DNA of 20,666 bases from a virus. Where the stretch lies: the IMG/VR virus record IMGVR_UViG_3300042090_000868, positions 1-20,666 of that record; one strand, written 5' to 3'. Below the pieces are notes generated by a model. It was not told where the DNA came from and did no database searches. It saw only the letters and a program-made list of their open reading frames with translations. Shown here piece after piece: positions 2,416-17,913 of this stretch (position 1 is the first letter of the stretch; each line of letters begins with the position of its first letter). A program made the translations under genes and the position numbers.

Positions 2416-2672
2416 CCGTTGAGCAGACTGCGCTGATACTGACAGCTTGTGGGACTTTATTGAGTTCCGTAGTTGCAGCTATCGGCGTGGTCTTCTCAGT
2501 TAGAAACAGTCGCAAGTTGGATGTGAATAACGATAAAATCGACGCAGTACACCGTAGCACTAACGGATTAGCTGAGCGCAACGAAGCCATTGCTCGGAAA
2601 CTGGGGGTTGTAGAGGGTATACAACAAGGTACCGCCAGGGAAAAACAACGTGCAGAGGACGAACACAAATGA
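2412..2672 (+). CDS. small N-terminal-TM protein upstream of endolysin; holin or spanin candidate
   Basis: This 86-aa protein starts at ATG 2412 (ATGA overlap with the previous stop) and ends in an ATGA overlap with the endolysin gene. Residues 6-30 form one hydrophobic segment (TALILTACGTLLSSVVAAIGVVF). It is followed by RNSRK and a charged coiled-coil tail (NNDKIDAVHRSTNGLAERNEAIARKL). A short N-terminal anchor with a coiled tail directly before a lysozyme fits a lysis accessory protein, either a small holin or an i-spanin-like protein without a recognised o-spanin partner. The LTAC at residues 10-13 resembles a lipobox but lacks a positively charged N-region and sits inside the TM helix. 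Confidence 0.6.
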   Translation: MTVEQTALILTACGTLLSSVVAAIGVVFSVRNSRKLDVNNDKIDAVHRSTNGLAERNEAIARKLGVVEGIQQGTAREKQRAEDEHK

Positions 2673-3136
2673 CTTTGAGCCCGTTAGGTCTGGCACTGAT
2701 TCAGTTCTTTGAAAACTACGCTGACCGGCCGTATCGGAGGTTTCCTCACGAGCCGTGGACTGCGGGGTGGGGCCACACCGGGGCGGACGTTACGCAGGAC
2801 ACTGTAGTCACGCCAGAAATTGCCTTGAAGTGGCTCAAGGAGGACACGCTGGGTGCGGAAACCGTGGTCATGCACGACGTAAAGGTGAAACTGTACCAGC
2901 ATGAGTTCGATGCGCTGGTGAGCCTCGTTTACAACGCAGGACAAGTTGCGTTAGAGCATCGCACAGGGGAAGTGTGGGTTGTCTCCACCCTGCTCAAGCA
3001 ACTCAACGCCAGCAACATCTCAGCAGCTGCGGAGGAGTTTCTGCAATGGGACCACTTGAATGGGGTTCCTGATAAGGGACTGCTGCGGCGTAGACAACTC
3101 GAAAAAGCATTATTTTTGGATGGAGCACCCACATGA
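2669..3136 (+). CDS. phage endolysin, GH24 lysozyme-like
   Basis: A 155-aa protein of the T4-type lysozyme family, which cleaves peptidoglycan between MurNAc and GlcNAc. The family core is visible: LALIQFFE15, then WT31AGWGHTG, then EFDALVSLVYNAG (about residues 74-86), and a C-terminal RRRQLEKALF. Glu15 is the expected acid catalyst and Thr31 the expected threonine. The Asp or Cys usually found nine residues after the Glu is Arg24 here, in the segment PYRRFPHEPW, so the triad is non-canonical. There is no signal or SAR segment, so release should depend on a holin. The start at 2669 overlaps the previous stop (ATGA) with GAGGAC upstream; the end overlaps the holin start. Confidence 0.85.
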   Translation: MTLSPLGLALIQFFENYADRPYRRFPHEPWTAGWGHTGADVTQDTVVTPEIALKWLKEDTLGAETVVMHDVKVKLYQHEFDALVSLVYNAGQVALEHRTGEVWVVSTLLKQLNASNISAAAEEFLQWDHLNGVPDKGLLRRRQLEKALFLDGAPT

Positions 3137-3917: not shown

Positions 3918-4583
3918 ATGCCCGTCGCGTTGACATTTACCTCTCTTAGCACTCAGGTGCTCCAGGCGTATGTGGAGCGCGGCGGGTCAGCCACCGACCC
4001 TACTTTTTTTGGCCAGATACCCCTGTTGATCAATAATGCGGAACGGGCACTGGCTCGCCGATTGAAAATCCTGGGGATGGTTATCCCGATTGTAGGGTCC
4101 TTGGCTGCGGGAACTGCGGTGTACACGAAACCTAACGGGTGGCGTCGCACGGTTTCGATGAATTTCGGAGTTGCGACGGTTGCGGACTCTTCGCAGAATT
4201 CGGCTACGCCTTTATTTGCCCGGCAGTACGAATACTGCCTGAGCTACTGGCCGGATCTGACCCAGACTGCGCAGCCGCAGTTCTACGCTGATGTGGATTA
4301 CGCACACTGGCTCATCGTACCCACGCCGCAGATCAGTTACCCGTGGCAAATCCTGTACTACGGGCTACCGCAGTTGCTGGATAGCTCAAATCAGACCAAC
4401 TTCTGGACGAACTTCGCACCCGAGACTTTGCTCTATCGGGCACTGCTGGAGTGCGAGCCTTTCCTGAAGAACGACGAGCGTATACCAACATGGCGCCAAT
4501 ACTACGAGGAGGGGGCTACCAACCTTGAAAATGAGGATCTAATGCGCTCAGTAGACCGTGCTGCGGTACGTAACGAGGATTGA
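3918..4583 (+). CDS. head-tail adaptor protein, SU10-adaptor type
   Basis: A 221-aa protein that probably docks under the portal ring. It shows the layout of SU10-type phage adaptors: an N-terminal helix (VLQAYVERGG), then FFGQIPLLINNAERALARRL, a beta-rich middle containing GWRRTVSMNF, QYEYCLSYWPDLTQ and ADVDYAHWLIVPTP, and the C-terminal segment ETLLYRALLECEPFLKNDER followed by WRQYYEEG. The start ATG 3918 lies three bases after the previous stop; an ATG at 3911 is out of frame and short. It is the second adaptor-like gene in the window and the more typical one. Confidence 0.75.
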   Translation: MPVALTFTSLSTQVLQAYVERGGSATDPTFFGQIPLLINNAERALARRLKILGMVIPIVGSLAAGTAVYTKPNGWRRTVSMNFGVATVADSSQNSATPLFARQYEYCLSYWPDLTQTAQPQFYADVDYAHWLIVPTPQISYPWQILYYGLPQLLDSSNQTNFWTNFAPETLLYRALLECEPFLKNDERIPTWRQYYEEGATNLENEDLMRSVDRAAVRNED

Positions 4584-7492: not shown

Positions 7493-8041
7493 ATGCCAAG
7501 ACCCTTTCCCATAGTGACCCCCATAGATCAAGGCCCTACGTTTGAGAGCCTGGATCAAGCTGCACACGAGGTTTCCAAAGACTTCGGCAAGCAGCCCGAC
7601 ATCGAGCAGTCGGCTGCGCTGTTCAAGCGCGCAGATGGTCGTTACCAGTACTCACCTGCGGTGACCAACTCAGATCACGATAACTTCGGGATGCGGGTGC
7701 AAATGCCGCAGGGCACTTCGTTGGCGGGTATCGTGCACAGCCACCCCGGCAGCGATGCTTTAGGCCAGTACTTCTCGCCGAATGATCTGAGCGTGGCGAA
7801 TCAGCTCAAAGTGCCGAGTTATATCCGTTTCTTGAAAGATGACTCGATACGTAAGTACACCCCGGGACAGACCTCGACAGCGTACTTGCCCGGGCTAGGG
7901 AGTCACGTATCGCGGGGGGACGCACTCAACTTGCCCGCTACGGATTCGACCCTGGGACCTAAGCTAGCTGACCTCAATGCACGCGCGCAGAACCTGACCG
8001 CTTCAGTCGCTTCCCTGCCTCAGGCACAGCAGACGCCGTAA
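7493..8041 (+). CDS. DUF4329 / JAMM-type metallopeptidase-like protein
   Basis: A 182-aa protein with a complete JAMM-style zinc signature: H82-S-H84-P, nine residues, S95-P-N-D98, with Glu38 upstream as the possible catalytic acid. The surrounding pattern (FESLDQAAHEVSKDF, GRYQYSP, AGIVHSHPG, FSPNDLSVANQLKVPSYI) matches the DUF4329 group. Proteins of this fold are zinc peptidases or isopeptidases; lambda tail protein K carries a related domain. The remaining 50 residues are Ala/Leu-rich. It sits between the adhesin-like gene and the nozzle gene in the tail module. No clear ribosome binding site is seen at ATG 7493, so it may depend on translation from upstream. Substrate unknown. Confidence 0.7.
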   Translation: MPRPFPIVTPIDQGPTFESLDQAAHEVSKDFGKQPDIEQSAALFKRADGRYQYSPAVTNSDHDNFGMRVQMPQGTSLAGIVHSHPGSDALGQYFSPNDLSVANQLKVPSYIRFLKDDSIRKYTPGQTSTAYLPGLGSHVSRGDALNLPATDSTLGPKLADLNARAQNLTASVASLPQAQQTP

Positions 8042-8042
8042 T

Positions 8043-9608
8043 ATGCCCACGACGCAACCTTTTCCTATCATGTCAAAGCCCGGGATAAAACGGGATGGCA
8101 CGCTGTTCGAAGGCCCTGAATACAAGGACGGGTTGTGGGTGCGGTTCAACCGTCGCGGGTTGCCCCGTAAGATGGCCGGCTACAAGTCGATTACTTCGCA
8201 GTTGCCTGAAGTCGTGCGCGGTATGGATGCGTACTTTTCCGGGGGTATCAACTATATACACCTAGGCTCACAGAGCTTTGTGACTCAAGTCCAGTCGGAT
8301 CAGTTTGGTAACCCCGGGTTTCAGGGAGACCGCACGCCAACCTCAGGGTTTACGCCCAACGCTAACGATCTGTGGATGTTCGATCAATTCGTGGATACGA
8401 CTGTAGGGCAAACGACCATTGTTGCTACCCCAGGGCAGAACCTGAATGACATTACGAGCACCGTAGAGACGCCTATTTTTTACGGCCCCGCCAATGCGAC
8501 AACCCCGCTGGTGCAGACCGGTATGCCCAACGTGGCGGGCGGCATCGTTGCCATCGCGCCGTACCTGATCGGCTACAGCATCAATGGTCGCATAGACATC
8601 TCGCAAATCAACAACATCAGCGCGGGAATAACATTCAATTCTGCGTTCGTGTCCGATCAGAAAGTCGTCAAAGGGTTGCCGTTACGCAACGGCTCGGGCG
8701 GTCCCGCAGCTATTTTCTGGACGCTGGCGGATCTGGTCGTAGCGACGTATAACCCGTATTTGCTGGCGGGTATCCCATTCAACTTCAATACCATAACTTC
8801 TGAGTTATCGGTGCTGTCGTCTCAAGGTATCGTCGAGTTTGACGGGATCTACTACTGGCCTGAAGTAGACCACTTCTCGATGTTCAACGGCGTTGTGCAC
8901 GAACTGCCGAACACCGCGAACCTCGAATGGTTCTATGAGAATCTGAACTTTACCCAGCGTCAAAAAGTGTTTGCCGTCAAAGTGCAGGCATGGGGAGAAA
9001 TCTGGTGGTGCGCCCCGCTGTTTGGCGCTACAGAATGCAACTGGGCTATTATATTCAACGTTAATTTGAACACGTGGTATGACACCCCGCTACCGGATGC
9101 AATCAGTGGAACGGGAGGCGGTAGCCGTTCCGCGGGGGTTTCCCCACGCGTCTTCAATAAGCCTTACTTTACGGATCTTGTGCAAACTTCCACGGGTTAT
9201 TCGCTGTGGCAACATGAGACCGGCACTGACAAAGTGATGGGAGGCGCGACTTACCCGATACGCTCCTACTTCAAGACTGCGGAAATTTCCCCTATTACGC
9301 AAAATCCCCCAAAGGATAAAGCTTTCCGGGTGTCATTGATCGAGCCTGATTTCACCCCGATAGGTCAGAACGCTACCGATTTGTTGGTTTCTGTGTTCTC
9401 GCGGGCCAACGCGCGGGAGTCGCAGGACCAGTCTGCGTTGGTGACCATTCCAGCGACGATTACGACGCCTGATCAGGAGCTCGTGCTGTTGAAGCAGAAT
9501 GCCCGACTCCTGGCGTTCCAATTCGAATCCAACACAGTTGGGGGGGATTACACCATGGGCAACGTCATGGCGCATATTGAAGAGACTGATGGGAGGTACA
9601 CCAAGTGA
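8043..9608 (+). CDS. tail nozzle / stabilisation-like protein
   Basis: A 521-aa beta-rich protein that opens with MPTTQPFPIMSKPGIKRDGT and YKDGLWVRFNRRGLPRKMAGY. That entry is typical of podophage tail proteins that form a beta-propeller nozzle (T7 gp12-like, or P22 gp10-like). Repeated blade-like segments follow (SGGINYIHLGSQSF, PNANDLWMFDQF, DGIYYWPEVDHFSMF). The length is within the range of such proteins. It lies directly after the fibre group and before the ejection genes, as expected for the tail tube end. ATG 8043 is one base after the previous stop; no strong ribosome binding site is visible. The end overlaps the next start as GTGA. Confidence 0.6.
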   Translation: MPTTQPFPIMSKPGIKRDGTLFEGPEYKDGLWVRFNRRGLPRKMAGYKSITSQLPEVVRGMDAYFSGGINYIHLGSQSFVTQVQSDQFGNPGFQGDRTPTSGFTPNANDLWMFDQFVDTTVGQTTIVATPGQNLNDITSTVETPIFYGPANATTPLVQTGMPNVAGGIVAIAPYLIGYSINGRIDISQINNISAGITFNSAFVSDQKVVKGLPLRNGSGGPAAIFWTLADLVVATYNPYLLAGIPFNFNTITSELSVLSSQGIVEFDGIYYWPEVDHFSMFNGVVHELPNTANLEWFYENLNFTQRQKVFAVKVQAWGEIWWCAPLFGATECNWAIIFNVNLNTWYDTPLPDAISGTGGGSRSAGVSPRVFNKPYFTDLVQTSTGYSLWQHETGTDKVMGGATYPIRSYFKTAEISPITQNPPKDKAFRVSLIEPDFTPIGQNATDLLVSVFSRANARESQDQSALVTIPATITTPDQELVLLKQNARLLAFQFESNTVGGDYTMGNVMAHIEETDGRYTK

Positions 9609-9829
9609 TTGACCCCCGTTACCTCACCGCGCAGCAGTGGACCGATGCGGTGAACCTCACGCTCGCCACTGCCGCACCGCTTCCCCGAATGCGGGGAAAC
9701 GATTGGCAGTCGTGGGCGTTAGGCGTGCTCGCAGTACCCTCGATTGCAGGGTTGTATCCCCCCGACCCTCGCGGGTTTACCGACTGGCGAAACTGGGCTG
9801 AGCGCTTCGTGCAGTGTGTGCCGCTATGA
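9605..9829 (+). CDS. small Trp-rich virion-associated protein
   Basis: A 74-aa protein starting at GTG 9605, overlapping the nozzle stop (GTGA 9605-9608) and ending in an ATGA overlap with the next gene. It contains LTAQQWTDAVNLTLA, NDWQSWALGVLA and DWRNWAERFVQC. Small proteins with this WxxW pattern sit between nozzle and ejection genes in several podophages. The double coupling suggests stoichiometric expression with its neighbours. Function unknown. Confidence 0.55.
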   Translation: MIDPRYLTAQQWTDAVNLTLATAAPLPRMRGNDWQSWALGVLAVPSIAGLYPPDPRGFTDWRNWAERFVQCVPL

Positions 9830-11814
9830 GCAGCAGCGGCACTCCGACAGGCTCCGCCAACCCCCTGGCTGCGTACGGGATCTACCAGGGAGCCACCTCA
9901 GGCAACCCCGTAGGGCAGACGCAGGCGGGTCTGGGCGCGGCCAAGATGTACGGCAACCTCACGGGCAACGCCAACTTGAATACGGGTGCTACGGGCGCGT
10001 TAGACGCCCTGGGCATCTACCAGGGCATCAACCAAGGGGGTTGGCAGGGGGACACCCGGGCAGCTGCTTCAGGAGCACAGCTCGCGGGGGTGGCTACGGG
10101 AGATTCTGCGCTGTCTTCCGTGGGCGGGGGCCTCTTGATCCCGCTGGACCTGTACAACGAGGTCAACAGCTACCAATCCGGCAATACTGCATCCGATGCG
10201 ATGTCGGGAGCTGAGACGGGCGCTGCAGTAGGCTCAGTTGTCCCCGTTATCGGTACTGCGGTCGGGGCACTGGCCGGGGGTGCGTTGGGCGCATTGGCCT
10301 CCGCATTCGGTCCGGGGGAAAAGGACCCTGAGACGTACGCATCTCAGAATGTGATCAATGCGACCTCTTCGAACCAGAATAACCCTGAGGTAGCCGCATC
10401 CGCGCAGAATCCGTACTTGGACCTCGCCGGCCTGATGGACGAGCGCTCATCTACGCTACCCGAATACCAGCAGTATGGTCGGATGGGTGAGCAGCAGTTC
10501 ACCGATGCCCTGGTGGGTAAGATCAACTCCGCTGCAACCTCTGACCCGTCGCTGGCCAGCAATCCAAGTGCGATGTACAGTCAAGTCGTGGCCCCCTGGG
10601 TAAGTTCCATGGGGTCTGGTTACAACAACGTGGGATCAGCCTACACCGCGACAAATGAGGGGTTGGTTGATGACATGGTCAATCAGTACATGTCAGGAGA
10701 CGCGGCTCAGGATTGGCAGTCTGTAGGGGGTCAATCCCCCTTCGCGAATATTTACAACAACAGTCCCTTTGAGTCGCAGTATCAGGACGTGCAGGCGCAG
10801 GATCAGGCGTTGCAACAGGCTCAAAGCGAGAAACAAGCTTTAACCGCCAACAGCGGCCAGAAGGCCGGCATGGCGAAGGTAGCTAGAGGCGGACACATGA
10901 CAAAGAAGACTTCGAAACACTCGTCTGTACTGGACAAAATTCGTCCTAGCTTCAAAGACGTGCCGCGTCATTACGACGATGGTGGATATGTCGACTACGT
11001 TAACCCTACTCCGATTACCTACGATTTCAATCTGGACACCCCCTCGAATGATGATTTGTCTGCGCTGAGTTCTCAGTCGGGGGTAGACAGTATAAATAAT
11101 CCCTACGCTGACAACAGTCAGAGTAGCAGCAGCTCCAGCGGGTTGGGGGGCGTATTGAGTTCGCTGGGGCTGGGCTCTGTAGGGTCTGCAATCAAGAACT
11201 ATGGCGCCCTGGCGCCGATCATTGCAGCGGCGTTAGGGGGTAATAAGAGCGCTTCCGCACCTGCTACTCCTGCGGGATTTACGAGCGGTACGAGTGCGAC
11301 TCTTCCCTCAGTAAGCTACAACCGCGCTTATACTCCCCCGAACGTCTCCAACTGGTACACGTATGGTGAGGGGCCAGAGCAAAGCTTCTTCAGCAATAAC
11401 CAGATTCCATCGGTTGCGGGAGTCACGCCTACTAATACGGGAAGTGCGGGGGCGGCTCCGCAAACCGCACCCCTTACCGCTAATACTCAGCCAGTGTCGA
11501 CAGTCATCAACCCGCGCATCATGGCCAGCGGTGGGGGCGTGTTTGATTCAACCCAAGGAGACAGTTATGTACCTGATCCGGGGCACGGTGATGGTACGTC
11601 CGATGATATTGACGCCAAGCTATCGGGTGGCGAGTACGTCATGGACGGCGGGACGGTTAGTATGTTGGGAAATGGCTCCAATGAAGCCGGTGCACGAGCT
11701 TTGGACGCCTTGCGCCAACGCGTTCGCAAGCACGCAGGCAAGCAGCTAGTCAAGGGCAAGCAGTTCATGAAGGCTCGTCCCCCGGAAGCCTACCTTAAGG
11801 GAGGCAAACCGTGA
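9826..11814 (+). CDS. putative ejection (internal virion) protein with glycine-zipper segment
   Basis: A 662-aa protein starting at ATG 9826 (ATGA overlap). It is rich in Gly, Ala, Ser and Gln. Residues 128-162 form a glycine-zipper hydrophobic stretch (GAAVGSVVPVIGTAVGALAGG and on to FG), able to insert in a membrane. A second hydrophobic part lies at about 434-475. The C-terminal segment 579-619 (PDPGHGDGTSDDIDAKLSGG, then EYVMDGGTVSMLGNGS) followed by a basic helix is a recurring ending of podophage internal virion proteins. It carries the GG motifs ARGGHM (353-358), DDGGYV (384-389) and ASGGGV (567-572). Such proteins leave the capsid to build the DNA channel. No transglycosylase motif is seen. 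Confidence 0.62.
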   Translation: MSSSGTPTGSANPLAAYGIYQGATSGNPVGQTQAGLGAAKMYGNLTGNANLNTGATGALDALGIYQGINQGGWQGDTRAAASGAQLAGVATGDSALSSVGGGLLIPLDLYNEVNSYQSGNTASDAMSGAETGAAVGSVVPVIGTAVGALAGGALGALASAFGPGEKDPETYASQNVINATSSNQNNPEVAASAQNPYLDLAGLMDERSSTLPEYQQYGRMGEQQFTDALVGKINSAATSDPSLASNPSAMYSQVVAPWVSSMGSGYNNVGSAYTATNEGLVDDMVNQYMSGDAAQDWQSVGGQSPFANIYNNSPFESQYQDVQAQDQALQQAQSEKQALTANSGQKAGMAKVARGGHMTKKTSKHSSVLDKIRPSFKDVPRHYDDGGYVDYVNPTPITYDFNLDTPSNDDLSALSSQSGVDSINNPYADNSQSSSSSSGLGGVLSSLGLGSVGSAIKNYGALAPIIAAALGGNKSASAPATPAGFTSGTSATLPSVSYNRAYTPPNVSNWYTYGEGPEQSFFSNNQIPSVAGVTPTNTGSAGAAPQTAPLTANTQPVSTVINPRIMASGGGVFDSTQGDSYVPDPGHGDGTSDDIDAKLSGGEYVMDGGTVSMLGNGSNEAGARALDALRQRVRKHAGKQLVKGKQFMKARPPEAYLKGGKP

Positions 11815-12926
11815 GCAGTACCTCAGGTAGCCCGCTGAGCTTTTTATATCAAGGCTCCACTCCGACGCAGGGCACCAATTACTCGCAGAGCACGAGTAAC
11901 GTACCGACGTGGTTGCAGGACTACTCGCAAGGCATCTTGGCTCAGTCCGCAGCCCTCGCATCCCAGCCGTATCAGACCTACAGCGGCCCGCAAGTGGCGG
12001 GATTCACCCAGGACCAAACCAACGCGCAAGGTGCCGTCGCGGGGCTGCAAGGGCAATACCAGCCTACTATCAACAGTGCTGAGGGGTTGGCGTCCTCTTC
12101 GGCTAATCCTTCCGCGATCAACAGTGCTCTGGGGACTTTGCCGCAGGCGCAGAGCATGGTCCAGGGCGCGCTGGCTCCCACGGCTGCGCAGATGAATCCT
12201 TACGCGCAGAACGTGATCGGAGCGGCGGAGACGCAGGCCAGTCAGTTTTTCCAGAATCAGCTGCAGCCTTCGATTCAGCAGCAGTACGCCGCAGCGGGTC
12301 AATCAGGCTCGTCTGCGGATCTGCGTGCACAGACGCAAGGCGCCAATCAGCTTGCCGAAAGTATCCAGTCTACGGGCGATGCCGCACTCGGTTCTGCTTA
12401 CACAGCTGCGCAGAATGCGGGCTTGCAAGGCGCAAGCGAAGAAGGTGCACTCGCGCAAATCGGTGGCGGGTTGGGATACGAGCAGGGCACTCTGGGGTTA
12501 CAAGGTGCGAGCACGCTGGGCAGCCTTGCGACTACCGGTCAGAATCTGGGCTTGCAGGGTGCGGGTGCACTCGATACGGTTGGGGGAGAAGAACAAAACC
12601 TCAACCAGGAAAACCTCAACACGGCACAACAGAATTTCCTGAACCAGGAGCAGTACCCCTATCAACAGGAGTCGTGGCTCTCCCAGATGATGAGCGGCAC
12701 CGCTACCCCCACAACCGTGCCGGGAAATACTCAAGGCTCGCAGACCTCGTACGCTCCTTCCACGGGAGCATCCCCGTTGAGTCAGGCAATCGGGCTCTAC
12801 TCTGGACTGAACTCCGGCGCGGTAGGTACGGCGTTAGGGGGCTCAGCCCGCGGCGGCTCCATCCGTCGCAAGGCGCAGCGTCAGCGCAGCCCCCTGGAGC
12901 AGGTTGCTAAGCACAGGAGTGCATAG
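11811..12926 (+). CDS. putative ejection protein, Gln/Ala-rich with GLQGA repeats
   Basis: A 371-aa protein starting at GTG 11811 (GTGA overlap with the previous gene). It has the layout of a widespread podophage virion family: TWLQDYSQGILAQSAALASQ with QTYSGPQVAGFTQDQ near the N-terminus, then MNPYAQNVIGAAETQASQFF, a long helical region with AAAGQSGSSADL, and a low-complexity C-terminus. Three spaced repeats (AGLQGA at 203-208, LGLQGA at 228-233 and 246-251) lie in a predicted helical stretch. The C-terminus is basic and contains ARGGSI (346-351) followed by RRK. The likely role is DNA ejection or tail channel formation. It is assigned by pattern and position. Confidence 0.6.
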   Translation: MSSTSGSPLSFLYQGSTPTQGTNYSQSTSNVPTWLQDYSQGILAQSAALASQPYQTYSGPQVAGFTQDQTNAQGAVAGLQGQYQPTINSAEGLASSSANPSAINSALGTLPQAQSMVQGALAPTAAQMNPYAQNVIGAAETQASQFFQNQLQPSIQQQYAAAGQSGSSADLRAQTQGANQLAESIQSTGDAALGSAYTAAQNAGLQGASEEGALAQIGGGLGYEQGTLGLQGASTLGSLATTGQNLGLQGAGALDTVGGEEQNLNQENLNTAQQNFLNQEQYPYQQESWLSQMMSGTATPTTVPGNTQGSQTSYAPSTGASPLSQAIGLYSGLNSGAVGTALGGSARGGSIRRKAQRQRSPLEQVAKHRSA

Positions 12927-12928
12927 GG

Positions 12929-14326
12929 ATGGCCGCGGACGATGACAGCCCAGATGCGGGAGCCGACGACACTCAACCTGCGGGTGCGCTAGACGCATTG
13001 CAGGCTCCTCCGGTTACCCCAGCAGGGCGAGCCTGGGGCGAGGACTACCTCAAAGCGCACCCGGAGGGAGTCGACACTAGGGGTGAGGCGTCGATATTCC
13101 AGGATTACGAAGCGAGTGCAGAAAATGCCCGTCAGACCCTGCGACAGGCCCGGGAGCACTTAGCCGCTCAGCGGATGGACCCGAGTGTGCTGGGTTTCCG
13201 AGTGGCTCAGGCCATGTTGGCCCCGTCGCGTTATGGTGGCGGAATGTCCAATCAGTTGAGTAACGCGGCGGGTGCGGTGGCTGATTGGCGCCAGCAGAAC
13301 AATCAGTTCCAACAGCAGCAGAGCACGCAGGATGACGCCCTTGCAGAGCAATTGTCAGGAGTGGATCAGCAATCGCTGAAAGCCAAACTTGCCCTGCAGG
13401 AGTTGCGCGAGCGCAATCAGGCTTCTATGCTCGATGTCGCCATGAAAGCAACTGCGCAGCCTCCCAAAGAGCCCGCGTCACAGTTGAAACTGCAGATGAT
13501 TGACACATCAGAAGGCAAGCAGCCGGTCATATTTGACCCCGTGAGTGGCGCGGTGAAACCCTACGGTAATCCGGCTACCCCCACAACAGCTAGCCTGGAT
13601 GATCCAACGATGGATTACCTGTACCAGTACTGGAACAACAGCCACGCGTTGCCCTCCGGGTACTCCCGCAACCCTGCGTTAGTCAATGTGATCATGGGCA
13701 AGATTGCGGACCGCGCAGCGACTGAGGGTAAGACAGACGCGCAAATCCTGGCGAACTCACAGCTGCTCAAGAGCCAGCAGAAGGCGGAGAATGACTTCAC
13801 CCCGGGCGGCAAGCTCGGCACCGCGTTGTTGAGTACCAACCGTGTCGTGGGTCACCTGGGTGACTATATGGATATTTTCAACGGGCTGAGTAACGGGGAT
13901 AGCCAGCTCGTAAACGCCGCCAAAAATAAAGTCAAGACGTGGTTTGGAAGTGAAGCGCCAACCGATATCAAGGCAGTAGCGCCTATCCTGGGGGACGAAC
14001 TGACGAAGTCTATTGTCCCCGGGGGTGGCGGCGTGACGGAGCGCCAGGAATTCACCCACAATTTCTCAACCGCCACGTCACCTGAGCAAGCTGCGGGTGC
14101 GATTCGCGCATATATGAACTTCTTGAAGACTCAGGTCGATGGGACCAAGAATGCTTACGAGCAGTTGCCTTCCCATCCGACTGATTTTGAGACTCGGTTC
14201 CTCACTCCTCGCACCCGTGACGCTTTAGGCTACGCACACCCCTCGGACGCACTGACGGTTGAGCAGCGGCAAGCCTTGATCGATATGATCCGACAGAAGA
14301 CAGCCCCTCAGCCCGGGACGCAATGA
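12929..14326 (+). CDS. putative ejection protein with conserved helical C-terminal domain
   Basis: A 465-aa protein starting at ATG 12929 with AGGAG about ten bases upstream. The N-terminal 50 residues are acidic and disordered. Helical, Gln-rich segments follow (ARQTLRQAREHLAAQ, then QQNNQFQQQQSTQDD). Residues of about 285-415 form a recognisable domain: FTPGGKLGTALLSTNRVVGH, LGDYMDIFNGLSNGD, APILGDELTKSI, GGGGVTERQEF and AAGAIRAYMNFLKTQ. This module recurs in DNA-ejection proteins of many podophages. No membrane segment is visible. It sits in the middle of the ejection block, and the neighbouring genes are within three bases. Confidence 0.65.
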   Translation: MAADDDSPDAGADDTQPAGALDALQAPPVTPAGRAWGEDYLKAHPEGVDTRGEASIFQDYEASAENARQTLRQAREHLAAQRMDPSVLGFRVAQAMLAPSRYGGGMSNQLSNAAGAVADWRQQNNQFQQQQSTQDDALAEQLSGVDQQSLKAKLALQELRERNQASMLDVAMKATAQPPKEPASQLKLQMIDTSEGKQPVIFDPVSGAVKPYGNPATPTTASLDDPTMDYLYQYWNNSHALPSGYSRNPALVNVIMGKIADRAATEGKTDAQILANSQLLKSQQKAENDFTPGGKLGTALLSTNRVVGHLGDYMDIFNGLSNGDSQLVNAAKNKVKTWFGSEAPTDIKAVAPILGDELTKSIVPGGGGVTERQEFTHNFSTATSPEQAAGAIRAYMNFLKTQVDGTKNAYEQLPSHPTDFETRFLTPRTRDALGYAHPSDALTVEQRQALIDMIRQKTAPQPGTQ

Positions 14327-14327
14327 T

Positions 14328-17267
14328 ATGGCAGAGCCTGACTACAGCAACATGACCGACGAGCAGCTCCTAGCGGCTGCGCATAGTGCGGGCGTGGATG
14401 GTTCAACACCTGCAGTTCCCAAAGGCGCGGCGGTAACTCCTGCAGATAACGGGGGAATGTCCACGCTGGAAAAGTGGGGGGCAGGTGCGTTAGCCACGGG
14501 AGCGGGTGCGCTGGCTCTCAAATACCCGGAGCTGCGCTCCATGGTGGAGAACATGGCGGCTCGCGCGAGTAACAAAGCCGCTGAGGTGCCCCTGTTTGAG
14601 CAAGCCGGACTGCGCACGGCACAGGACAGTCCGATTGCGCGCACGCTTGCCGGTTCTTCGGGTCAAGAAGCGTTGCGCCTGCACACCGCGGAAGTCAGCC
14701 GCACGATTGCCGCTAACGAGGCGGGAATCCCCGCAGCTCAGGCGCCTGTCCTCTCGCATGACATCCTGGCGGATGCCCGTCGCGCTCCGGGGGACGTATA
14801 CGATCGGGTGGGTAAAGCGCTCCCTACTTCTGGACTGGATGCGGACGCGCAGCAGGCGATTCAGACTGCGGGCTCACCTGCCGGTGGTCGAATGACTAAG
14901 GGTAGCCCTGAGGCCCTGGCGCAAATCAACGATTTGAAAGCCCAGTTGCTGGACCCCAACCGCACTTTTACCGGGCAGCAATTCATCAATGAGGTCCGCG
15001 GGCTGCGTCAGGAAGGGTTTACGAACGTCGCTTCCGACGATGTGAGTGCCCAGCAGTTGGGACGTGCGCAACTCGGCATCTCCCGGGCTATCGAAGACCA
15101 CATCGGGCGTAACATACCGAACGATGCGGATGTTACATTGCAGCAGTTCCAGGACGCCCGTAAAACGCTGGCCAAGAACTTCACGGTGCAAAGCGCGCTA
15201 CGCGGGGGGGATGTTGACTTGAAAGCCCTGGCTCGTGCGCAGCGGGCTGACCCCGGGGTGTTGGATGGGGGCATGAAGTTGCTGGCGGACTTCGGAGATG
15301 CGCACCCGGAAGTGGCAGCGCTACCTTCGGAAGCTACCCGGTATAGTCCCCCCAGCGCTGCGCGGGATCTGTCCGACATCAGCCTGAAAGACCCCGTCTC
15401 GTGGATTCGTCCCGCACTGGGGAATCTGGCTCGTCGCTCACTCGTAGGTGACCGTGAGGCGGCTATTGCGCAGGCTAACCAGGCCTTTCCAGCCCGCGCC
15501 GCCGGCAGCTTCTCCCCTCCGCCACCTGCTCCGCCGCCTAAATTCGGGGGCTATTTACCCTCACCTGACCTGGTGAGTGCTGGCGGAGGTGCGAGTACGG
15601 CCAACACGCTGCGTGATCTGGGGCTCACCCCAGATGTGCAGGCCGCAGCTTCTCAACACCCTGCTGCGGCGCGTCTGCAGGCGTTGCGCGAGCAGTTGGC
15701 GCAAGCTCCTGAGCGCCCGGCTCAGTCGATTGACTTCCAGGGACCACAGAAGTGGGGCGATTTCTCCCTTGCGCCGCAAAGCACGCCGAGTCTTGCGGCT
15801 GCTCAAGGAGTCCCCTTTGAAAACGTACTCGAACAGGGTGGCACACAAGGTAAACCTGTCGCGGGGATTCAATCAGGGTACCGGCCGGCGCCGCAGTCGC
15901 CGAAGGGTCCCAATATGCGCACCCCTTCCGGAGCGCCTGAGCTGACGGAGTTTACCCCTCAGGTACCCTCTGATGCGCAGAACAATTTCCGCAACCAACT
16001 CGCCGCGGACAGGCTGCGCAAAGTCGCAGGGGATCTGAGTATTGACGCCCCGGGCGCCAACAGCGGTGACCCCATCGCACGGTTGCGCGCAGCGCTTGAG
16101 CGCCGCGATCGGGGCTATGCCGAGGGGGGTGAGGTGCGGAGCTCCTCTCCGGGTTCCCCGGGGGTAGGCGGTGCGTTGAAAGATGCAATTGCGGCACTCA
16201 AAGACTACGTCATCGGTTTGCCTCAGCGGAACCTGCAGGCCGCGAGAGAGGGGATGGAAAATTCCGTGGTTAACGATACGGTAAGTCACCCTCAGGTACC
16301 CTCTTCTGGAAATTATGCGGACGGGGGCACGGTGACGATCGCGCAGCGTGCGCAGTCGATGGAAGACACCGCGCGCCAGTTGGCAGACCTCGTGAGCCTG
16401 CACGAGTCGCAGAACTCGCCTCCTCAACCCGGGCAGGCCCCCCAGACGACTCAGGGGCTGGCTGGCGGGGGTCGGGTGGAGCTGATTGAGAAGATCGGCC
16501 AGTACCTGGACGAAATCGCCGCTCAACGTGCAGCTCGCAACGCAGCGATCGGAGACCGTGCGCCCAAGATACCCTTGGTGCAGTCCCCGGATGGGCCCCT
16601 TCCTGCCGCAGCTACAGCCCCTCAGGGACCTTCCCTTCCCCCCAGCACGCCCCAGAACCCCCTGCAGCCCGGGTTCCTCACAGCGCCTCAGGCGATGGCT
16701 GACGGGGGCGCTGTGGATGACAGCCAATCCACTGTGCGCAAGCTCGCAGACCTTGCCCGTCGTCTTGACAACCCCTCAGGCACCGACCCCAATGCGGAGC
16801 ACCGCGCGCGTGTCGTAACGAACCTCGCAAGTTTGGCTTACGGATTGGATGACAAGGGCAACCCCGCACTCGGGGGGCGGGCGTGGACGAGTACCCAAGG
16901 GGGTACCCCTGCGGGCGTGCTCGATGCGCTCACCTCGACTCCTCACAACCTCGTGCAGCTGGGCAAAACGATCGACAAGTACCTGCCCGGGCAGAGCAAC
17001 CCTAAATTCTGGGATTCCATCGATCCTCAATGGTCCCAAGACGCTTCAAACCGATTAGGGCAGCTCAAGCAGCGGATGCAGCAGTCGGCCGGCGTAGCCC
17101 CTGCCAAGGGCCTGGGGGACACGATTGCGGATATGGTCACCGATCCGTCCATGGTAGCCCCGATGGGTGCGGCGAAATTGGCACCAAAGGGTACGACGCT
17201 GAGTAAGCTCCTCAACTGGTCCACGGGCAGCAGCCCAGAACAACCCGCACCTGCTGGGGGAAGCTAA
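14328..17267 (+). CDS. large ejection (internal virion) protein with GG-motif/helix modules
   Basis: At 979 aa this is the largest product in the window. It starts MAEPDYSNMTDEQLLAAAHS and has a short Gly/Ala hydrophobic segment (about residues 50-65). A helical domain (about 140-335) contains PGDVYDRVGKAL, TGQQFINEVRGLRQEG and FQDARKTLAKNF, as in podophage ejection proteins. A Pro-rich hinge lies at 394-405. The C-terminal third holds four GG motifs, YAEGGEV (597-603), YADGGTV (663-669), AGGGRV (712-717) and MADGGAV (790-796), each followed by an amphipathic helix. AGGRM also occurs at 185-189. The probable role is DNA delivery through the envelope. There is no visible lysozyme or transglycosylase motif. 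ATG 14328 follows the previous stop by one base. Confidence 0.65.
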   Translation: MAEPDYSNMTDEQLLAAAHSAGVDGSTPAVPKGAAVTPADNGGMSTLEKWGAGALATGAGALALKYPELRSMVENMAARASNKAAEVPLFEQAGLRTAQDSPIARTLAGSSGQEALRLHTAEVSRTIAANEAGIPAAQAPVLSHDILADARRAPGDVYDRVGKALPTSGLDADAQQAIQTAGSPAGGRMTKGSPEALAQINDLKAQLLDPNRTFTGQQFINEVRGLRQEGFTNVASDDVSAQQLGRAQLGISRAIEDHIGRNIPNDADVTLQQFQDARKTLAKNFTVQSALRGGDVDLKALARAQRADPGVLDGGMKLLADFGDAHPEVAALPSEATRYSPPSAARDLSDISLKDPVSWIRPALGNLARRSLVGDREAAIAQANQAFPARAAGSFSPPPPAPPPKFGGYLPSPDLVSAGGGASTANTLRDLGLTPDVQAAASQHPAAARLQALREQLAQAPERPAQSIDFQGPQKWGDFSLAPQSTPSLAAAQGVPFENVLEQGGTQGKPVAGIQSGYRPAPQSPKGPNMRTPSGAPELTEFTPQVPSDAQNNFRNQLAADRLRKVAGDLSIDAPGANSGDPIARLRAALERRDRGYAEGGEVRSSSPGSPGVGGALKDAIAALKDYVIGLPQRNLQAAREGMENSVVNDTVSHPQVPSSGNYADGGTVTIAQRAQSMEDTARQLADLVSLHESQNSPPQPGQAPQTTQGLAGGGRVELIEKIGQYLDEIAAQRAARNAAIGDRAPKIPLVQSPDGPLPAAATAPQGPSLPPSTPQNPLQPGFLTAPQAMADGGAVDDSQSTVRKLADLARRLDNPSGTDPNAEHRARVVTNLASLAYGLDDKGNPALGGRAWTSTQGGTPAGVLDALTSTPHNLVQLGKTIDKYLPGQSNPKFWDSIDPQWSQDASNRLGQLKQRMQQSAGVAPAKGLGDTIADMVTDPSMVAPMGAAKLAPKGTTLSKLLNWSTGSSPEQPAPAGGS
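16116..16860 (+). repeat. four GG-motif plus amphipathic-helix modules (protein level)
   Basis: Within the 979-aa protein four copies of [YLM]-A-[DEG]-G-G-x-V are each followed by an amphipathic helix: LKDAIAALKDYVIGLP, AQSMEDTARQLADLVSL, LIEKIGQYLDEIAAQRAARN and VRKLADLARRLDN. A fifth copy occurs in the next gene at about 17650. The DNA itself is not repetitive, so the repeats are old or held by selection on the protein. Confidence 0.6.
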
Positions 17268-17268
17268 A

Positions 17269-17913
17269 GTGCCTTCTACCTCGGAACCCCAGGCGCGACT
17301 CATGGCCGCTATTGCGCATGGTTGGCGACCATCTAACCTGAAACACGCACCGTCACAAGCGGTAGCGCGCGATTTCAACCAAGCCGACAAGGGCAGTGCC
17401 CTACTGAGTCACGCTATGCAACATCGCGCAGCCGGCGGTCCTATCTCACCCTTAGCATCTCTCGTGGGCAACCCGATGACGATGCGTTCAACATTACCTA
17501 AGATGGGCCAGCCGATGGGGGGTGTAGGTCACTTACGCATGCCTCACATTCCTATCGGGGGCGCACTGCGTAACATCGATCAGCACATGGCCGGCGCCCG
17601 GTTGCACCTGCCCACTATCAAGGCTGCGATGGGGGGCCGGATGCGTCACTTCGCGGATGGAGGCGAGGTACAGCTCGGTGCGCGAGCGATCAGTGCGATC
17701 AAGGATGCACTGTCACATCTGGCTAACCGCGATGCCTCCTCAGCCGCTGCGACACTGCGCGCGTCCCCTGAAGCAATGTCGCATCCTGTAGTGCAGCAGG
17801 CGGCTCAGTCACTGCGTGCCTCGACAGGAATCGCGCCAGCCACACGCAACCTCACTGGGGTGGTGAATGCGGATACTGATCGTGTTGTCATGCCTTCGGT
17901 GGCAGGTCAGTAG
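17269..17913 (+). CDS. small virion-associated protein with GG motifs
   Basis: A 214-aa protein starting at GTG 17269 with GGGGGA upstream, one base after the previous stop. The N-terminus (STSEPQARLMAAIAHGW, then AVARDFNQAD) matches a short domain found in small phage structural proteins, related in look to DUF3008-type sequences. Gly/Met/His-rich spacers follow. Residues 54-59 (AAGGPI), 121-125 (MGGRM) and 128-134 (FADGGEV) repeat the motif of the upstream ejection genes, and the last is followed by a helix (AISAIKDALSHLANRDA). It is the last gene of the + strand block, and its 3' end overlaps an opposing gene. Confidence 0.6.
   Translation: MPSTSEPQARLMAAIAHGWRPSNLKHAPSQAVARDFNQADKGSALLSHAMQHRAAGGPISPLASLVGNPMTMRSTLPKMGQPMGGVGHLRMPHIPIGGALRNIDQHMAGARLHLPTIKAAMGGRMRHFADGGEVQLGARAISAIKDALSHLANRDASSAAATLRASPEAMSHPVVQQAAQSLRASTGIAPATRNLTGVVNADTDRVVMPSVAGQ

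Follow-up and report, generated by a model that had tools for sequence, protein, structure and literature searches.

A short protein motif, A-x-G-G-x-[VIM], recurs in four of five consecutive virion genes of a 20,666-base virus record (IMGVR_UViG_3300042090_000868, the whole of which is referred to here as the window). The motif is real, selected, and common to different proteins of one virion machine. We tentatively interpret it as a short linear motif at the module borders of expelled virion proteins that marks a maturation-cut or hinge site, an explanation that we regard as quite possible, if somewhat short of probable. The 5 genes occupy positions 9814–17913, all on the + strand: gene A (9814–11814, 666 amino acids [aa]), gene B (11811–12926, 371 aa), gene C (12929–14326, 465 aa), gene D (14328–17267, 979 aa), and gene E (17269–17913, 214 aa). 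The virion-stored proteins of this phage are probably pushed into the bacterium.

Motif copies in the window and their conservation

A sequence-only reading of the window had reported at least 10 copies in four of the five virion genes, and the 11 words that it quoted are all present in genes A, B, D, and E, while gene C (12929–14326) carries none. Seven of these 11 words follow the strict pattern A-[DERS]-G-G-x-[VMI], against approximately 0.08 expected in composition-shuffled proteins, and this frequency above that of shuffled sequences holds gene by gene (2, 1, 3, and 1 observed in A, B, D, and E; 0.03, 0.01, 0.03, and 0.01 expected). The remaining words, DDGGYV, AGGGRV, AAGGPI, and AMGGRM, are looser. 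Because the plain GG content is just mildly raised, the signal is carried by the flanking residues. The pattern was picked after reading the window, and the out-of-sample tests described below therefore weigh more than these counts.

The conservation of each copy was analyzed in homologue alignments of 6 to 9 sequences. In gene A, the 2 glycines of copy A357 (ARGGHM, 10882–10899) are kept at 0.86 and 1.00 in 8 homologues, with flank identities of 0.05 and 0.15, and the GG of copy A388 ((Y)DDGGYV, 10975–10992) is invariant between flanks of 0.17 and 0.19. Copy A571 ((M)ASGGGV, 11524–11541) has an invariant second G and precedes a GEYV module, a layout also found in lambda gpH and in the Caulobacter phage GB2A, and the gene ends in a degenerate copy ((Y)LKGGKP, 11794–11811) where the GB2A homologue ends in YMDGGRV. 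The single copy in gene B, B346 ((S)ARGGSI, 12846–12863), has an invariant GG in 9 homologues, with a downstream flank of 0.17 and an upstream flank of 53%. The 4 copies in the modular gene D lie in its C-terminal 40%: D598 ((Y)AEGGEV, 16119–16136), where all 6 homologues share GG, A, and V; D664 ((Y)ADGGTV, 16317–16334), which is unaligned in the D homologues; D712 ((L)AGGGRV, 16461–16478), which reads YAGGGRV in 3 relatives; and D791 ((M)ADGGAV, 16698–16715), retained in 3 relatives and changed to MAEGGTP in one. In gene E, A and GG of copy E54 (AAGGPI, 17428–17445) are invariant in 7 homologues, the weaker copy E120 (AMGGRM, 17626–17643) keeps its second G invariant and its A at 0.33, and E129 reads (F)ADGGEV (17653–17670). 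For A357, A388, and B346, GG is thus kept in 86% to 100% of the sequences, with flanks only 5% to 19% identical on at least one side. The copies use differing Gly codons, and none of the 6 families of direct repeats of at least 16 nt covers any of them. This indicates that the constraint acts on the protein and not on mobile DNA, and rules out a mobile DNA element or a recombination site.

The word in other phages and at the T5 pb2 cut site

In a near-identical relative, the 60,653-base (60.6 kb) contig IMGVR_UViG_3300014658_000001, A-x-G-G-x-[VIM] occurs 16 times: twice in A, once in B, 4 times in D, 3 times in E, 4 times in a 257-aa protein, once in a 139-aa protein, and once, as a single isolated word, in a 204-aa open reading frame. 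The word is absent from the portal, capsid, terminase, scaffold-like, adaptor, fiber, lysis, and replication genes of this genome. The 257-aa protein is Gly/His-rich, is encoded just upstream of the window (L044:985–1758), and has matches in 6 of the 6 relatives searched. The 139-aa protein is His-rich and is encoded in the head region, on the - strand, between the portal gene and a 349-aa scaffold-like gene (L261:6583–6999). Both genes lie outside the window and served as one out-of-sample test of the pattern.

The word was re-derived out of sample by scanning IMG/VR for DNA coding YA[DE]GGEV, a single spelling of it, with the reversed word as control. At least 120 contigs carried YA[DE]GGEV versus 81 for the reversed word. 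Among the matches listed, to which all the YA[DE]GGEV results that follow refer, the frames holding the motif places, 124 of 124, were 60 residues or longer and contained 138 further [AS]-x-G-G-x-[VIML] words versus 23.7 expected. Frames with the reversed word contained 32 versus 6.9 expected, so part of the excess is shared by Gly-rich phage proteins at large. The phage open reading frames with the word were then grouped in 36 single-linkage clusters and their remaining GG pairs were scored, which showed enrichment of Y/F/M at position -3 (p = 5e-10), A at -2 (p = 1e-7), and V/I at +3 (p = 4e-11). Shifted controls were null (V/I at +4, Y/F/M at -4, A at -1, and A at -3), with V/I at +2 mildly raised, and 12 further full copies were found in the 36 clusters versus 0.21 expected. 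These offset enrichments in unrelated proteins define the word as [YFM]-A-x-G-G-x-[VI]. In 63 YA[DE]GGEV proteins, the leading PHROG matches were tape-measure families and the DNA-ejection family, and single proteins carried LPD23, ART-PolyVal, or PcfJ domains; polyvalent proteins, for which LPD23 and ART-PolyVal are named, have been proposed to be injected (PMC5512222). Portal proteins predominated in the reversed-word sample. As the sequence-only reading stated, tape-measure and ejection proteins outside this phage also carry such words, lambda gpH and T5 pb2 among them.

Using proteomics together with intact-mass measurement, Linares et al. mapped the maturation cut of T5 pb2 to the position following R1127 (PMC10038345). 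The protein contains one A.GG.[VIM] word, AEGGMM, which starts at A1128, directly after this cut; our residue numbering agrees with the published one at T1085 and R1127. All of 13 distinct T5-like sequences keep R-A-E-G-G unchanged, and the probability of a random cut falling within 2 residues is 0.004. Lambda gpH is also cleaved during assembly (PMC3224144), and the lambda genome contains only 2 relaxed words, both in gpH. In 54 gpH sequences, Y/F, A, G, and G of these words are invariant, and the words are near-invariant apart from x. They have the main rod on one side and, on the other, the C-terminal helix 818–842, which has been modelled in the tail tip (PMC10721106); as the model covers gpH 818–842, the words themselves lie outside the resolved structure. 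T5 is the sole tape measure found with a cut located by mass spectrometry, and literature searches on the processing of tape-measure proteins returned nothing beyond T5, lambda, and general statements, and a text search with six spellings of the motif word found no paper. Phage JBD30 was considered as a second mapped case (words at 1020 and 1082) and rejected, because the cut proposed for it, at 1066, is no more than a guess computed for Arg-C.

Module borders and gene context

Gene E consists of an N-terminal MPS module (residues 1–51, 17269–17421), a disordered middle, and a C-terminal helical bundle (17680–17823, predicted local distance difference test [pLDDT] scores of 72 to 89 in most blocks). 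In its AlphaFold2 (AF2) model (mean pLDDT 59.9), helices span residues 6–16, 30–54, 138–152, 156–165, and 173–185 and residues 52–132 are of low confidence, so that the words fall at the borders of the helical module, the disordered stretch, and the bundle: E54 is at the end of the MPS helix and E129 at the border between the disordered stretch and the bundle. The model had no match at E ≤ 0.001 in a viral structure library. The C-terminal AF2 model of gene A has a mean pLDDT of 45, and neither this region nor the MPS module has a convincing match among solved structures. The motif flanks are slightly more disorder-prone.

Judged from the sequences of the homologues, modules swap and insert at the motif borders. 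The module D616–669, which precedes copy D664, is found within the E homologues of relatives L046 and L048, and an insertion in L045 is bordered by words. An insertion of approximately 100 aa stands right after copy D791 in L050. Alignment edges are 2 to 3 times enriched at motif words; this lends weak support only, because such enrichment is partly expected at any conserved island. The proposal of a movable unit of motif plus amphipathic helix was thus borne out in part: protein modules do swap, and 5 copies, four in D and one in E, precede an amphipathic helix, E120 (AMGGRM) merely preceding FADGGEV. It is not mobile DNA, however, and it is not general, as helix propensity and moment after the motif equalled those of random positions in the broader sample, which rules out a general motif-plus-helix unit.

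Several further observations concern these modules. The inserted domain in the D homologue of L050 (L050:16493–19897; EGLREPGTIKDIWDRPV...) has no family match, and in the E homologue of L048 (L048:15159–15971) the MPS module is replaced by another N-terminal module (MPWTPKDALRHTKKA...) that likewise ends at a word. The MPS module itself (phrog_16759) is a stand-alone small protein in many other phages and occurs in approximately 35 contigs; its consensus, MPSxSxxQARxMAAIAHG...VAxEFNQADKG, was matched in 113 phage records (loci 17269–17421, L256:4001–4792, L258:6001–6159, and L259:8001–8141). It is free in the giant phages 201phi2-1 (gp383) and PhiPA3 (gp316), fused in 121Q (gp51), and in BUCT555 flanked by a portal-like gene and the capsid gene.

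Gene B falls in phrog_4287, a family of DNA ejection proteins whose profile covers its residues 17–339 (E = 2.4e-8). Gene A is composed of a glycine-zipper segment (residues ~123–162), a disordered middle, and a C-terminal tape-measure-like module (GDGTSDDIDAKLSGGEYVMDGGTVSMLGNGS) with weak matches to the tape-measure families phrog_6090 and phrog_5448; its homologue in GB2A is annotated as tape measure. In residues 571–625, near the C-terminus, an A-x-G-G word is followed by a G-E-[YF]-V module, as in a tape-measure C-terminus. The glycine zipper matches tape-measure and bacteriocin profiles weakly, and may possibly be membrane-inserting. Upstream, the window encodes a lysozyme (2669–3136), an SU10-type adaptor (3918–4583), a DUF4329/JAB-like protein (7493–8041, DUF4329 match), and a virion structural protein of phrog_3287 (8043–9608). 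The cultivated Caulobacter phages GB2A and RW encode relatives of this structural protein and of gene A; in GB2A, protein GB2A_gp065c carries the word ARGGYA, and the position of gene D is occupied by a transglycosylase protein. As regards a long-tail-tube role for gene A, the SU10-type adaptor and the syntenic ejection set suggest a short tail, and in the near-identical genome, where part of the genes were searched, none for a tail tube was noticed. The DUF4329/JAB-like protein has an intact-looking HxH...SxxD pattern and lies among fiber and structural genes.

Possible roles of the word and parallels in known systems

In the explanation that we prefer, selection would maintain the word in linkers that are exposed, for the most part disordered, and placed between modules; the proteins concerned would be held in the virion until they are expelled at infection, the bearers of the word being podoviral ejection proteins, tape-measure proteins, and some injected multidomain proteins. 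The likeliest job of the word would be to mark and form a module border at which the chain undergoes a maturation cut or bends on its way out through the tail. The T5 pb2 cut, the cleaved lambda gpH, and a looser parallel in P22 gp7 favor such a cut or hinge site. By analogy with T5, the products of genes A, B, D, and E may undergo trimming or partial cutting immediately in front of A-x-G-G, and each resulting fragment would then start with AxGGxV, its own module coming next. The analysis shows the motif, its conservation and restricted occurrence, its location at module borders, and its coincidence with the T5 site; the cutting of the proteins of this phage, and which protease would perform it, are inferences. 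The double-glycine processing site considered by the sequence-only reading, whose interpretation is partly supported overall, agrees with this insofar as the T5 cut adjoins A-E-G-G-M-M, but the cut lies before A-x-G-G and not after GG. For docking between ejected subunits and for membrane contact, also raised by that reading, the observations weigh neither way.

A Gly-Gly bend with hydrophobic anchors might also serve packing and unfolding on exit as a hinge only, with no binding or cutting. The copies are indeed found in stretches that are disordered or of low model confidence, as well as at helix-domain borders, and their flanks are slightly disorder-prone, as mentioned above, but we consider a hinge alone unlikely, because it would not require the Ala at -2 and the Val/Ile at +3 found in unrelated proteins. 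Defined side chains around GG (aromatic/Met, Ala, and Val/Ile) suggest recognition, and copies are present in several proteins, including 2 small head-region proteins, as they would be if the word were a docking or cargo-loading motif for a common surface of the virion interior (capsid inner face, portal, tail lumen, or an ejection protein). This role is rather doubtful: no partner was found, there is no obvious surface common to tape-measure and head proteins, and in T5 the word is instead at the cut site. Strands of aromatic, Gly, and Val residues could pair reversibly and hold the expelled proteins together, and the several copies per protein and a composition that would suit short beta contacts are in line with this weak self-association, which is nevertheless improbable given that the strand is not present in the AF2 monomer models. 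That the words have no function and represent leftover bias in fast-evolving linkers or recent duplication is very improbable. The pattern was chosen post hoc, and Gly-rich phage proteins show some excess even with the reversed word, but the conservation of GG against diverged flanks contradicts this explanation, as do the differing codons and the re-derivation of the signature out of sample.

Several observations weigh against the cut or hinge site. Among experimentally mapped cuts, only that of T5 pb2 coincides with the motif, and Arg precedes A-x-G-G in the window only at E54, the other copies having Y, F, M, L, V, S, or A. The position of the lambda gpH cut was not found in the literature searched; gpH* is presumably smaller than gpH by some 12 kDa, a difference that would fit cleavage at the first word. 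Computed cuts after GG737 or GG782, a few residues past the starts of the two words at A734 and A779, would leave 80.1 or 84.9 kDa of the 92.3 kDa of gpH. Several copies per protein would predict heavy fragmentation, and expulsion is not known for the products of the 2 word-bearing genes of the head region that lie outside the window. The word is missing from T7 gp16, P22 gp7, gp16, and gp20, and the P2, Mu, and HK97 tape-measure proteins, and is thus not required for ejection in general; relaxed words occur in HK97 gpI and gpJ and in a P2 fiber protein. Finally, no dedicated protease was identified. The DUF4329/JAB-like neighbor was considered as a GG peptidase and is an unlikely one, its homologues being found in only 3 relatives (L044, L049, and L050). 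The copies are internal and mostly in C-terminal halves, unlike the double-glycine leaders of C39 peptidases, and none of 10 head-region genes tested was recognized as encoding a protease like gp245 of the giant phage SPN3US, a capsid protein alone giving partial capsid-protease-fusion matches.

A broader version, in which A-x-G-G-x-[VI] would be a general maturation-cleavage code of phage-expelled proteins (tape measures, ejection proteins, and injected multidomain proteins), which would be stored as chains and cut at module borders by one widespread host or phage peptidase, is fairly unlikely. The processing of tape-measure and ejection proteins is poorly mapped. If the words are cut or hinge sites, sequences would allow cleavage to be predicted for lambda and for numerous uncultured phages, and would directly reveal how modules are laid out in large injected proteins.

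Four known systems are the closest to the window proteins. The SPN3US gp245 prohead protease recognizes a motif, AXE, common to many packaged or ejected proteins and cuts after Glu (PMC10052503). These sites share with the window word a short motif spread over many proteins, but the motif differs, the conserved word here being A-x-G-G and not A-x-E. In P22, a 20-residue leader is removed from the ejection protein gp7 by the host OpdA just before K-G-G-K-G-G (record note), a looser parallel; gp7 lacks the A-x-G-G-x-V word of the window proteins. In lambda gpH, a GEFV module lies between FATGGFT and YATGGYV, much as ASGGGV stands before the GEYV module in gene A, although lambda has a single word-bearing protein whereas in the window the word is spread over several genes. 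T5 is a siphophage with one copy and an Arg before the cut, unlike the podoviral-type ejection proteins of the window with their several copies preceded mostly by Tyr, Phe, or Met. Like these proteins, however, T5 pb2 carries an A-x-G-G word, which is near its C-terminus and is followed by a G-E-x-G-x-E-V stretch.

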